Positions 6,945 through 10,461 of a DNA stretch of 51,449 bases are shown piece by piece (the first letter of the stretch is position 1; each line of letters starts with the position of its first letter). Origin of the DNA: Candidatus Mediterraneibacter stercoripullorum (GTDB taxonomy: Bacteria > Bacillota > Clostridia > Lachnospirales > Lachnospiraceae); assembly GCA_019115765.1 (NCBI GenBank), contig DXCZ01000003.1:1-51449 (forward strand), given 5' to 3'. The notes beneath the pieces are model-generated. The model did no database searches, was not told the DNA's origin, and saw only the letters and a program-made list of their open reading frames with translations. The translations under genes and the position numbers were made by a program.

Positions 6945-7133
6945 ATGTCGAGAAAACTGGTCATTGATGGAAATGCAGTGTATGAGATTGATGAGGACTG
7001 TATGCTCAGGCGGCGGCTTGACCATAAAGAGGAGACAGATGGCACAGGGAAGGAACGAAGAAATAATGCCCGTGAGCAAAAGAAGGATACTAATTGCTCT
7101 GACAGAATATCTTCCGGCGGGAAAAAATATTGA
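6945..7133 (+). CDS. Small charged hypothetical protein
   Basis: A 62-residue protein beginning MSRKLVIDGNAVYEIDEDCM, then a strongly basic and hydrophilic remainder with many Arg, Lys, Asn and Asp. No membrane segment or signal is present. The ATG at 6945 follows an AGAAAGGA ribosome site. The N-terminal LVIDGNAVYEIDEDC motif looks like a conserved small protein, though no family name is recalled. A sigma-K-like promoter (6886-6912) suggests late mother-cell expression. A second frame starting at 7039 overlaps its last third, so a frameshift between the two is possible. Confidence 0.55.
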   Translation: MSRKLVIDGNAVYEIDEDCMLRRRLDHKEETDGTGKERRNNAREQKKDTNCSDRISSGGKKY

Positions 7134-7233
7134 TTTCAGTAAAATGAATACTGAACAGTATGAAGCACTTTTCGAGAGAAAAAGAAGGATGTGCGGCCGG
7201 AAAACCGCACATCCTTCTTTTACTGAACTTTAA
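7039..7233 (+). CDS. Possible overlapping small ORF
   Basis: A 64-residue frame with ATG at 7039 behind AGAGGAGACAG, overlapping the preceding small gene in another frame. Its middle (RILIALTEYLPAGKNIDFSK) reads like real protein. The last 17 or so residues are encoded by the perfect 16-bp stem of the terminator at 7181-7220, which argues that its 3' end is accidental or truncated. It could be the true continuation of the 6945 gene after a frameshift. Low confidence. Confidence 0.3.
   Translation: MAQGRNEEIMPVSKRRILIALTEYLPAGKNIDFSKMNTEQYEALFERKRRMCGRKTAHPSFTEL
7181..7220. terminator. Bidirectional terminator, perfect 16-bp stem
   Basis: AAAGAAGGATGTGCGG (7181-7196) is perfectly complementary to 7205-7220, with an 8-nt loop. 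T-runs follow the stem on both strands, so it can end the rightward small genes and the leftward cysteine-rich gene. Confidence 0.85.
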
Positions 7234-7264
7234 GAATACAACTTTGTAATTGATCAAATACTGA

Positions 7265-7477
7265 TCAGCAGCCGCATCCGTTATTTCCGAAACCGCCGCA
7301 GCAGCACAGAAGCAGGATGATCCACAGGCAGCTATCATTGCCGCATCCGTTTCCGCTGAAAGTATTTCCGCCGCATCCGCCGCAGCAGGCAAGAAGCAGA
7401 ATGATCCACAGGCAGGAAGACATTCCGTTTCCGTTTTCGCATCCACATCCACAGTTTGTAGCAGTTAAATCACTCAT
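7265..7477 (-). CDS. High-cysteine small protein (chorion class HCB-type)
   Basis: A 70-residue protein with 14 cysteines and many Gly and Asn. It resembles the Firmicute proteins annotated as chorion class high-cysteine HCB protein 13. The segment SCLWIILLL occurs twice, at residues 21-29 and 49-57, each time followed by a Cys-Gly run, so the protein is an internal duplication of about 28 residues. Each copy is a short hydrophobic hairpin-like element between Cys/Gly-rich linkers. The ATG at 7477 follows TGGAGG, and a sigma-K-like promoter lies at 7511-7537. Late mother-cell expression and crosslinking in a spore surface layer are plausible inferences; function is not established. Confidence 0.7.
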   Translation of the reverse strand: MSDLTATNCGCGCENGNGMSSCLWIILLLACCGGCGGNTFSGNGCGNDSCLWIILLLCCCGGFGNNGCGC

Positions 7478-7510
7478 GTTAAATCCTCCATTTGGGTTTA
7501 TTTACAGTTT

Positions 7511-7537
7511 TATATTATGCCTGCGCCAGAAAAGTGT
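7511..7537 (-). promoter_or_regulatory. Sigma-K-like promoter of the high-cysteine gene
   Basis: On the minus strand AC (7536-7537), a 16-nt spacer and CATAATATA (7511-7519) match AC-N16-CATANNNTA. The left edge of the repeat unit at 7541 lies only 3 bp upstream of its -35 element. Confidence 0.55.
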
Positions 7538-7540
7538 GCT

Positions 7541-7620
7541 TCGGGGACGTAGTTAAATTGAATTTTGCTACGTCCCCGATTGAGTTTCAGGGTGTCCCCA
7601 ATTGGATTTTGCCCTGTCCC
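7541..7620. repeat. Left inverted array of the subtilase unit
   Basis: Three 22-nt units in exact phase (7599-7620, 7577-7598, 7555-7576, read on the minus strand) start GGGACAGGG, GGGACACCC and GGGACGTAG. The outer end is a 12-bp hairpin stem (7541-7552 with 7568-7579). Confidence 0.8.
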
Positions 7621-7675
7621 AAAATGGAAACAATTAACAATTTGAGGAATATCTTAATTGAAAAAAGGTATTTTT

Positions 7676-8584
7676 ATGAGATGGGTAAAAAAAACAATCC
7701 AATATTGGTGTGACGATATAATAGAAGAAAAATACCTGGGCAGTGGTATCCGCGTAGGAATACTGGACACAGGAATCGTCGTGCATCCGGATCTGCAGAG
7801 GAGAATATGCGAATTCAGAGATTTTACATGTAACAGGCAGCGGACATGTTATGATGACAGTGGTCATGGAACTCATGTGGCAGGAATACTGGCAGGAGAA
7901 GGAAGAGCATCAAGAGGAATGTATTCGGGAATAGCGCCTGATACGGATCTCTTTATAGGAAAAGTGCTGGATCGTTATGGAAACGGGAATGTTGAAGATG
8001 TGTTAAATGGAATACAGTGGATGCTGTCACTAAAGAGGGAAAAGAACCTGAAAATCGTTAATATTTCAGTGGGAGCACAGCCGGATCTCGGAGAGGAGCA
8101 GAAGAAGAAATTTCTGGATGCTGTCGATGAAATGTGGGATGCGGGACTGACTGTTATCGTTTCAGCAGGAAATTACGGCCCATCGGCAGGCTCTATTGCT
8201 GTTCCGGGAAACAGCCGAAAAGTAATTACTGTGGGAGTGCCGGATTCATTCCGATATAATAGGAACTACAGAAAAAAGACAGATTATTCTGGCAGAGGAC
8301 CTACCAGTGAATGTATAATAAAGCCGGATGTATTCGCTCCAGGTACTGGGATTGTCAGTTGCAACAGCAGATTCTCTGAAAAAGGAGAGCCATTTTATGT
8401 AATGAAAAGTGGCACTTCCATGGCGACACCAGTTATATCCGGTGCTATCGCCTGTCTTTTGTCAAAATATCCGGATATGACAAATGTAGAGATAAAGCTC
8501 AGACTCCGTGAAACCTGTGTGGATTACCCTGGGACAGAGGCTGGATGGGGTTTATTAAATGTTAAAAAACTGATGAATGCTTAA
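7676..8584 (+). CDS. S8 family serine protease, intracellular subtilisin type
   Basis: A 302-residue subtilase with an intact catalytic set: D31 (ILDTG), H64 (GHGTHVAG), oxyanion N166 (SAGNYG) and S248 (SGTSMATP). It lacks a signal peptide, and the catalytic domain starts almost at the N-terminus with no propeptide of usual length, so it would act in the cytoplasm or be released another way. The ATG at 7676 has AAAAAAGG 7 nt upstream; an in-frame TTG at 7658 is less likely. Codon choice is visibly more AT-rich (many ATA, AAA) than in the neighbouring ffh region. It is the only gene between two inverted 22-nt repeat arrays, which suggests acquisition as cargo. Confidence 0.88.
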   Translation: MRWVKKTIQYWCDDIIEEKYLGSGIRVGILDTGIVVHPDLQRRICEFRDFTCNRQRTCYDDSGHGTHVAGILAGEGRASRGMYSGIAPDTDLFIGKVLDRYGNGNVEDVLNGIQWMLSLKREKNLKIVNISVGAQPDLGEEQKKKFLDAVDEMWDAGLTVIVSAGNYGPSAGSIAVPGNSRKVITVGVPDSFRYNRNYRKKTDYSGRGPTSECIIKPDVFAPGTGIVSCNSRFSEKGEPFYVMKSGTSMATPVISGAIACLLSKYPDMTNVEIKLRLRETCVDYPGTEAGWGLLNVKKLMNA

Positions 8585-8587
8585 AAA

Positions 8588-8687
8588 GGGACAGGGTGAA
8601 ATTCAATTTGGGACACAGTGAATAACGATTTGGGACATACTGAATTTCAATTTGGGACGTAGTGAAATTCGATTTTACTACGTCCCC
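8588..8687. repeat. Right inverted array of the subtilase unit
   Basis: Four 22-nt units in exact phase start at 8588, 8610, 8632 and 8654, reading GGGACAGGG, GGGACACAG, GGGACATAC and GGGACGTAG. The last one pairs with ACTACGTCCC (8677-8686) as a 10-bp terminal hairpin. Confidence 0.8.
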
Positions 8688-8708
8688 AAATATGTAAAGA
8701 AAAAATAC

Positions 8709-8737
8709 TTGACACCCTTTCTCCTTTCGTGTATGAT
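8709..8737 (+). promoter_or_regulatory. Sigma-A promoter of the ylxM-ffh operon
   Basis: TTGACA (8709-8714) and TATGAT (8732-8737) are 17 nt apart. The promoter begins 21 nt after the end of the repeat unit, so the unit sits directly upstream of an essential operon without breaking its promoter. It also supports the ylxM start at 8754. Confidence 0.85.
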
Positions 8738-8753
8738 AGCAAAGGTGACAACA

Positions 8754-9104
8754 ATGAATGAGATTTTAGAGCAGGCATTACTGTATGATTTCTACGGCGA
8801 GCTTCTGACGGATCATCAGAAGGATGTCTATGAGCAGCATATCCTGGATGATCTTTCTCTCAGTGAGATTGCTGAGATGAAAGGAATCAGCCGCCAGGGG
8901 GTGCATGATCTGGTACGCCGCTGTCAGAAGACGCTGGAGGGCTATGAGTCGAAGCTGCATCTGGTAGAGAAGTTTCTCTCGATAAAGGAGAAGGTCGGCA
9001 GGATCGATCAGATCCTGGAGGAATGCGAAGTGCAGAAGGCTGAGCCGGGAGAAATCGTAAGGCGTGTCCGGGAGATTTCGGATACGATCATAGAGGAGTT
9101 GTAG
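8754..9104 (+). CDS. ylxM: YlxM family DNA-binding protein
   Basis: A 116-residue helix-turn-helix protein of the YlxM/p13 family, usually encoded directly before ffh and thought to modulate the signal recognition particle pathway. The visible HTH is LSLSEIAEMKGISRQGVHDLV, similar to sigma region 4. The C-terminal half is a charged coiled-coil-like helix. The ATG at 8754 follows AAAGGTGA and lies 17 nt after the -10 box; an upstream in-frame start at 8652 lies within the repeat array and before the promoter. It ends one base before the ffh start, so translation is coupled. Confidence 0.9.
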   Translation: MNEILEQALLYDFYGELLTDHQKDVYEQHILDDLSLSEIAEMKGISRQGVHDLVRRCQKTLEGYESKLHLVEKFLSIKEKVGRIDQILEECEVQKAEPGEIVRRVREISDTIIEEL

Positions 9105-9105
9105 A

Positions 9106-10461
9106 ATGGCATTTGACAGCTTAACAGAAAAACTTCAGAATGTGTTTAAGAACCTGCGCAGCAAAGGGCGTCTTACAGAAGACGATGTGAAGACAGCGCT
9201 GAAAGAGGTGCGTATGGCTCTTCTGGAAGCGGACGTTAACTTCAAGGTCGTCAAAAACTTTGTTAAGGACGTACAGGAGCGGGCTATCGGGCAGGACGTC
9301 ATGAACGGTCTGAATCCGGGCCAGATGGTGATCAAGATCGTAAATGAAGAGCTGATTCGTCTGATGGGCTCTGAGACGACAGAGATCAAGCTTCAGCCGG
9401 GAAGCGCCATGACAGTTATCATGATGGCTGGTCTCCAGGGCGCTGGTAAGACGACGACTACGGCAAAGCTGGCCGGAAAGTTCAAGCTGAAAGGCAAGAA
9501 GCCGCTGCTTGTTGCCTGTGATGTTTACCGTCCTGCAGCGATCAAACAGCTGCAGATCAACGGAGAGAAGCAGGGTGTTGAAGTCTTCTCCATGGGCGAC
9601 AAGAACCGGCCTGCGGACATTGCAAAGGCAGCCGTGGAACATGCGTCGAAGAATGGGAATAATATCGTGATCCTTGATACGGCTGGCCGTCTTCATATTG
9701 ATGAGGATATGATGGCAGAGCTGCAGGAGATCAAGGAGGCCGTTATCGTACATCAGACCATACTGGTGGTAGACGCCATGACCGGACAGGACGCGGTGAA
9801 TGTTGCAGGGACATTTAATGATAAGATTGGGATCGACGGCGTGATCGTCACGAAGCTGGACGGTGACACGAGGGGCGGAGCGGCTCTCTCTATCCGGGCC
9901 GTGACAGGAAGGCCGATACTATATGTAGGTATGGGAGAGAAGCTTTCAGATCTGGAACAGTTTTATCCGGACCGGATGGCTTCCCGTATCCTCGGCATGG
10001 GCGATGTCCTGACCCTGATCGAGAAGGCCGGGGCAGAGATCGACGAAGACAAGGCCAAACAAATGGCCGACAAGATGAAGAAGGCCCAGTTCGATTTTGA
10101 CGACTATCTTGAAAGCATGGAACAGATGCGCAAGATGGGCGGGCTCTCGGGGATCATGAGTATGATGCCCGGACTTGGAAACATGGGTGCCAAGATGCCG
10201 GATCTCGATTCGGAGGAAAACGAAAAGAAGATGGCCAGGATGGAGGCCATGATCTATTCCATGACTCCCGAGGAGAGAAGAAACCCAGATCTGCTGAATC
10301 CCTCCAGAAAGCACCGTATTGCAAAAGGTGCGGGCGTTGATATTGCGGAGGTCAACCGTATGGTGAAGCAGTTCAACGAGTCCAGGAAGATGATGAAGAA
10401 GCTTCCAGGCATGATGGGTGGCAGAGGTGGCAAGAGGGGCAGATTCAAACTCCCCTTTTAA
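9106..10461 (+). CDS. ffh: Signal recognition particle protein Ffh (SRP54)
   Basis: A 451-residue SRP GTPase that binds signal peptides and 4.5S RNA and delivers ribosomes to FtsY at the membrane. The N domain (about 1-85) is followed by the G domain with GLQGAGKTTTTAKLA, DTAGRL and TKLDGDTRGG, and by the methionine-rich M domain from about residue 300 (GGLSGIMSMMPGL, KMMKKLPGMMGG). Length is normal for the family. The start codon is placed one base after the ylxM stop, with a GGAG site inside ylxM. It is the second gene of an operon followed by ribosomal genes. Confidence 0.97.
   Translation: MAFDSLTEKLQNVFKNLRSKGRLTEDDVKTALKEVRMALLEADVNFKVVKNFVKDVQERAIGQDVMNGLNPGQMVIKIVNEELIRLMGSETTEIKLQPGSAMTVIMMAGLQGAGKTTTTAKLAGKFKLKGKKPLLVACDVYRPAAIKQLQINGEKQGVEVFSMGDKNRPADIAKAAVEHASKNGNNIVILDTAGRLHIDEDMMAELQEIKEAVIVHQTILVVDAMTGQDAVNVAGTFNDKIGIDGVIVTKLDGDTRGGAALSIRAVTGRPILYVGMGEKLSDLEQFYPDRMASRILGMGDVLTLIEKAGAEIDEDKAKQMADKMKKAQFDFDDYLESMEQMRKMGGLSGIMSMMPGLGNMGAKMPDLDSEENEKKMARMEAMIYSMTPEERRNPDLLNPSRKHRIAKGAGVDIAEVNRMVKQFNESRKMMKKLPGMMGGRGGKRGRFKLPF

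Follow-up and report, generated by a model that had tools for sequence, protein, structure and literature searches.

The names TIRYT and TIRtron have been given to Y1 transposase genes that lie between long inverted repeats of a kind that also forms genomic families (Di Nocera 2013, PMC3733652). This group probably corresponds to subclass 2.1 of the TnpAREP proteins, which is the same as RAYT group 1 (Quentin 2018, PMC6006769). REPtrons appear not to move as units (PMC6006769), and RAYTs are reported to be single-copy and vertically inherited (PMC8049555). Tandem REP arrays have been mentioned for P. fluorescens (Nunvar 2010, PMC2817692; Bertels and Rainey 2011, PMC3116915). As far as the body text of these papers goes, neither PMC3733652 nor PMC2817692 mentions Firmicutes or Clostridi, and PMC6006769 has no mention of Firmicutes and two of Clostridi; a single search of a limited paper collection for RAYT in Firmicutes found no paper. 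Here, we consider a stretch of 51,449 nucleotides from Candidatus Mediterraneibacter stercoripullorum (the window), in which a subtilase gene stands between two mirror-oriented arrays of 22-nt units. We conclude that both arrays are, with high probability, dispersed REP-like repeat copies that were inserted separately beside a resident protease gene, and that they were most likely mobilised by a Y1 transposase of the RAYT/TIRYT type.

The genome that contains the window (G000; 3.2 Mb, 89% complete) was compared with genomes that are mostly drafts. The left array (7541-7621) is composed of a hairpin and two more 22-nt units, and the right array (8588-8687) of three 22-nt units and a hairpin (Table 1). 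This confirms the initial annotation, in which three units on the left and four on the right flank the S8 protease gene as mirror images and each array is terminated outward by the GGGGACGTAG hairpin. The 87-nt arms are 76% complementary, whereas 2000 pairs of dinucleotide shuffles averaged 27% and never exceeded 46%. When folded as single strands, both arrays do better than every one of 200 shuffles, whichever strand is taken (z -4.1 to -6.4). The left neighbour, a gene for a Cys/Gly-rich small protein, is known from its translation, the ORF scanned there (7090-7452) being in a different frame; the flank between this gene and the array (7477-7540), where the initial annotation placed a putative sigma-K-like promoter, matches that of the closest relative, G042, at 97% identity across 63 nt. 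On the other side, the ylxM promoter does start 21 nt past the right hairpin, as originally described, and most of the protease-ylxM gaps compared across relatives end in a stretch that resembles it. The protease codons were also rightly said to be more A/T-rich than those of the neighbours: GC3 is 0.37 in the protease gene versus 0.45-0.65 in seven other measured ORFs of the window.

Table 1. Arrays, protease gene and neighbouring features in the window.
Feature	Position	Strand	Remarks
Cys/Gly-rich small protein gene, 70 aa	7265..7477	-	left neighbour; translated ORF; "spore-coat-like" by eye
Left terminal hairpin, GGGGACGTAG-N15-CTACGTCCCC	7543..7577	+	the genome has 27 of this kind
Left ladder unit 2, head GGGACACCC (as - strand)	7578..7599	-	
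Left ladder unit 3, innermost, head GGGACAGGG	7600..7621	-	
S8 (subtilase) protease, 308 aa, TTG start, ATG at 7676	7658..8584	+	Pfam PF00082, E 3.5e-50
Right ladder unit 1, innermost, GGGACAGGG	8588..8609	+	3 nt past the protease stop codon
Right ladder unit 2, GGGACACAG	8610..8631	+	
Right ladder unit 3, GGGACATAC	8632..8653	+	
Right ladder unit 4, terminal hairpin GGGACGTAG...CTACGTCCCC	8654..8687	+	
ylxM-ffh promoter-like TTGACA-17-TATGAT	8709..8737	+	untouched by the array
ylxM (UPF0122)	8754..9104	+	Pfam PF04297, E 1.3e-26; scanned as ORF 8652-9104
ffh (SRP54)	9106..10461	+	Pfam PF00448, E 1.2e-75

Both arrays belong to a larger repeat family. The GGGGACGTAG motif occurs 45 times in G000 versus 7 times for the reversed pattern, and GGGAC-N21-25-GTCCC is found at 34 places versus 16 for its reverse; by count from the list, 27 of these 34 are 33-nt hairpins with GTA or GCA after GGGAC. 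The strict hairpin is present in 43 of the 58 genomes of the genus, at 0 to 30 copies per genome (reversed control, 0 in all). Among 299 genomes drawn from the whole taxonomic family, it is present in only 11, G000 included. A repeat copy consists of a hairpin of 33-34 nt (GGGGACGTAG...CTACGTCCCC) at one end and, behind it, direct 22-nt units with GGGAC heads. Over 113 parsed arrays, which are not independent since orthologous loci recur, 198 of 206 ladder steps measure exactly 22 nt; the parser tries 22 nt first, accepts 20-24 nt and lets ties favour 22.

The order of the ladder units was also considered. AGGG is the last unit in 59 of the 79 ladders with at least two units (0 of 10,000 shuffles as high). 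Outside the transposase locus described below, this holds for 12 of 27 ladders, and these 27 include some double counts of one array or of near-copies (L043 also contains the right array of the window, and L025 has two identical arrays). As a general ladder rule, AGGG-last was dropped, the signal coming mainly from the orthologous transposase locus, where the order from hairpin to innermost unit is GTAG, then ACA/ATA/ACC, then AGGG. GCAG-type hairpins were rejected as a sister family; they are not abundant (1-3 per genome in 9 of 58 genomes).

Two observations concern individual repeat copies. At one locus of G000 (L207, contig C53), the hairpins at 1515 and 2967 belong to two identical arrays of the same direction, 1452 bp apart; together with the nearly identical upstream flanks, this looks like a segment duplication. 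By eye, hairpin ends often abut Shine-Dalgarno-like sequence (L007, L019, L029, L034 and L203), with CCTCCTTC before the hairpin or GAAGGAGG or GAAAGGAG after it, hinting at a preferred target.

The protease gene itself is single-copy in 53 of the 58 genus genomes; at E 1e-60, none was found in G009, G020, G021, G023 and G033. Stretches upstream of ffh were compared in 55 genomes, G009, G023 and G033 having no orthologous ffh match, and in 49 of the 55 the protease lies within that stretch. Elsewhere, it is 3-4 kb upstream on the same contig (G002, G036 and G054), is on a separate contig from ffh, with both contigs ending between the two (G001), or was not found (G020 and G021). Identity of the protease between the compared species is 56-84%. 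The gene also sits just upstream of ylxM-ffh, with no arrays beside it, in [Ruminococcus] torques (L040), Candidatus Dorea (L041) and a Lachnospiraceae bacterium (L042); the L040 protease protein is identical to that of G055, and the two are probably one genome. A stretch resembling the Cys/Gly-rich gene lies to the left of the protease in L039 (the G042 locus) and L040, and in L041 one extra gene intervenes. The description of the protease gene as "lone" was accordingly corrected, its neighbours being retained in relatives. Across these genomes, the protease is an ordinary, long-resident gene that is normally found just upstream of ylxM-ffh.

Five genomes show an inversion of just the protease gene with respect to ylxM (G005, G010, G018, G024 and G041; L101, L074, L102, L100 and L099, respectively), and the Cys/Gly-rich gene is unmoved in the four with a readable left side. 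On the tree the five inverted genes take 3 changes, and an AU test of one origin gave p 0.27.

The arrays show a different pattern from the gene. A strict right array is present at 10 of 52 readable loci (G000, G003, G004, G008, G025, G027, G041, G042, G045 and G047), and a strict left array at 3 of 51 (G000, G042 and G045), a count that omits G041, the left side of which is off its contig. The other 42 loci on the right and 48 on the left have no strict array, and the protease-to-ylxM gap is 68 nt in G037, G039 and G051 versus 175 nt in the window. The initial annotation had proposed a search for empty sites; with respect to the arrays such sites do exist, but they still contain the protease gene. 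On a protease tree of 52 rows, the right array takes 8 changes, of which at least 5 are forced by well-supported branches, and its label shows no significant clustering (73 of 500 shuffles were as low); the left array takes 2 changes, both forced. Gain or loss of arrays has thus occurred several times and not always on both sides at once, and, given these differing distributions, the two need not travel together. A single event may have placed both in the ancestor of G000 and G042.

This bears on the first proposal made for the locus, a non-autonomous element in which the arrays are terminal inverted repeats, the protease is cargo and, as we would now add, a Y1 transposase acts in trans. The transposase gene described below does have the same hairpin-out mirror ladders, and the protease has A/T-rich codons (GC3 0.37); the mean GC3 difference to ylxM is -0.12 at the 10 right-array loci versus -0.03 at the 42 without, as cargo would also lead one to expect. 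However, the gene is found array-free at the same place in most relatives examined, with one copy per genome in 53, and the right and left arrays are distributed differently, which makes such an element very improbable. The initial annotation also offered a gene captured between two REP-like elements. REP-like is apt, given the 27 hairpins in the genome and the link to a RAYT-type Y1 gene, but "captured" is not, since the gene is present without the repeats. The outcome that was to speak against any such element, units fixed in all relatives and repeats nowhere else, is borne out only as to the place of the gene: the repeats do occur elsewhere, and empty array sites exist.

Several loci near the protease deserve description in their own right. 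At G001:C58 (L246, 2474-2528), an AGGG unit and a hairpin lie 5' of the protease exactly at the contig end, and fit either a left array or a right array next to an inverted protease. An unrelated insertion starting TTCAGCCCGCGCC occupies the protease-ylxM gap of G015, G034 and G053; in G053, it comes directly after an array-like GGGACAG start. The arrays that follow the protease in G008, G025, G027 and G047 (L120, L111, L116 and L112) are nested, nearly perfect palindromes, the arms of which vary between genomes and are complementary, or nearly so, within each (e.g., GTCGGG and GTTGGG), as if they had been corrected against each other. Arm-pair similarity was tried as a test of joint origin and proved uninformative: the protease arms resemble each other no more than other pairs do (rank 156 of 276), but those of the transposase gene, the positive control, rank 187.

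Alternatively, the arrays could have evolved in place, as ordinary paired transcription terminators or as hairpins that stabilise mRNA, and be kept for regulating the protease and ylxM. Between the window and the G042 locus, identity is 95% for the arrays but 81% for the protease gene; for ylxM together with the first part of ffh, it is 93%. The difference between arrays and protease speaks for regulation in place, as does a GGGACGCAG-stem hairpin with a T-run in the pflB-pflA gap of G038 and G051; it may reflect constraint, homogenisation or fast protease evolution. Against this, no terminator-like site was found in 7200-9000 in a search for intrinsic terminators, and the same interval has no Rfam match at E up to 1; moreover, the dispersed copies track the transposase, and the arrays are absent from most relatives. 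Evolution in place is therefore unlikely. A regulatory effect of the arrays could, for its part, be compatible with a mobile origin.

A search for a REP-associated Y1 transposase elsewhere in the genome, also proposed in the initial annotation, was successful. A RAYT-type Y1 gene at G000:C121, which adjoins glyS in G000, stands between the same mirror ladders with hairpins outward. The product matches PF01797 (E 2.9e-8), as do 15 of 15 members scanned, and it scores 70.3 bits (E 1.5e-19) against the NCBIfam RAYT model NF047646, below the equivalog cut-off of 80. The Y1 match covers residues 13-122 of 255 aa, followed by a long C-terminal extension. In 15 transposase sequences H60-F61-H62 and Y119 are invariant, and the position of Y119 suggests that it is the catalytic Tyr. 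Pfam at E up to 1 detected no C-terminal helix-turn-helix family in the 15 members, and phmmer against the PDB returned one match, at E 0.88, which is not credible.

Homologues of this transposase (at least 58% identity) are present in 32 of the 58 genomes, with one match each in 30 of them; G032 and G052 have two. At least 5 hairpins (5-30) are present in every genome with the transposase, versus 5 of the 26 genomes without it (G030, G033, G035, G042 and G056; 11-27 copies), an association with a Fisher p of 2e-11 that ignores shared descent. The hairpins of transposase-free genomes, among them the closest relative, G042, speak against the link, though loss or assembly gaps could explain them. 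The transposase locus was compared in 30 of the 32 genomes (G004 and G017 left out), and the outer flanks of all 30 fall into one single-linkage cluster, i.e., the same site. Strict hairpins lie on both sides of the gene at 26 of these loci; the remaining 4 have a degenerate side. The position of the gene, identical in 30 of 30 loci, is thus stable, whereas its repeats are dispersed. A second Y1 transposase gene in G000 (L005, contig C108) has different flanking repeats, containing AAGTACCTGTCCCC.

The 22-nt spacing and the 3 + 4 count also recall transposons with multi-site ends. Tn7 ends have 22-bp TnsB sites, three on the left and four on the right. Unit length and count both match, and yet a remnant of such an end is scarcely credible: 0 to 4 ladder units stand behind the hairpin in other arrays, the termini fold as hairpins, and the linked enzyme is a Y1 protein with its own invariant residues (H60-F61-H62 and Y119).

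Besides one-sided arrays, the family includes two-sided elements, which measure about 227 nt and have their hairpin starts 194-195 nt apart. They lie in unrelated flanks at L131, L195 and L199 and also in the pflB-pflA gap (gene names by eye), and alignments between them, in either orientation, span most of the element at about 67-75%. The pflB-pflA survey covered 31 chosen genomes of the 58, of which 28 were parsed; two strict hairpins at a distance of 193-217 nt are present in 14, a single one in 3 and none in 11. Three genomes without the strict hairpin family (G036, G038 and G051; L231, L215 and L214) have a single GGGACGCAG-stem hairpin in this gap; in G038 and G051 it has a T-run. It may be an old repeat copy turned terminator.

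The protease is not the only bracketed gene. In G000, argJ, between argC and argB (all three identified by NCBIfam), is bracketed by hairpin-out arrays, a bracket that also encloses a neighbouring GNAT-like gene (by eye), and argJ is bracketed hairpin-out at the corresponding place in G003 (L238). At L239 and L240, other genes lie between two arrays of the same direction. Mirror arrays are no sign of cargo.

Separate insertion of repeat copies could proceed as follows. The Y1 (HUH) transposase encoded beside glyS would recognise the hairpin as single-stranded DNA, and would copy or move repeats into intergenic gaps, either as one-sided arrays or as the two-sided elements of about 227 nt; it is the presence and absence of repeats between species that points to movement. 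The transposase gene itself stays in place, as the comparison of 30 loci shows. One-sided arrays that lie on either side of a gene with their hairpins outward mimic a transposon, as seen with the protease and argJ. The 22-nt period is close to two turns of DNA, and the units may be phased binding sites for the transposase. A more far-reaching possibility, which we put forward tentatively and think rather unlikely, is a new kind of HUH-transposase end: a terminal hairpin plus a 22-bp ladder phased on one helix face, with the unit order kept at the transposase gene, would form a multi-site recognition end. What moves would then be the two-sided elements of near-fixed length, and mirror arrays on either side of a resident gene (the protease, inverted by itself in five genomes, or argJ) could act as local rearrangement sites.

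By analogy, this repeat-transposase system appears to work like TIRYT and REPtron systems. As in TIRYTs, a Y1 gene lies between long inverted repeats, of which there is a moderately abundant genomic family, and the TIRYT motif GGGGWSAS fits some of the ladder units (e.g., GGGGACAC and GGGGACAG) but not the hairpin head GGGGACGT (PMC3733652). Here, the arms are made of a terminal hairpin and a 22-nt ladder, whereas the text of PMC3733652, figures aside, has no such ladder. The RAYT-like gene between two inverted repeat copies, and the dispersed one-sided and two-sided copies, recall REPtrons and REPINs as presented in PMC2817692 and PMC3116915. In the REPs of those accounts, however, a GT(A/G)G head precedes the palindrome, while GTAG lies inside the GGGGACGTAG/CTACGTCCCC stem here. 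The repeats were accordingly not classed as canonical REPs: no GTAG/GTGG head stands 5' of the stem, and GTAG pairs within it. The two-sided elements, about 227 nt long with about 194 nt between hairpin starts, likewise differ from the REPINs of PMC2817692 and PMC3116915. The flanking repeats GGGG[AT][CG]A[CG] and the long C-terminal extension after the Y1 domain are shared with TnpAREP subclass 2.1, which has a C-terminal helix-turn-helix (PMC6006769), a domain that Pfam did not detect in the 15 members scanned here; the transposase may belong to this subclass. What is new is the 22-nt ladder behind the hairpin, together with two-sided elements of near-fixed length; a narrow literature search, covering abstracts and text passages, found no description of either the hairpin with a 22-nt ladder or two-sided elements of about 227 nt.

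An apparent one-gene "transposon" can thus be an illusion created by a REP-like family, and a resident orthologue together with empty array sites is a test for such an illusion. In addition, the repeat system described here, which is of RAYT type but has an unusual end made of a hairpin and a ladder, is documented across 58 genomes of one gut Lachnospiraceae genus.
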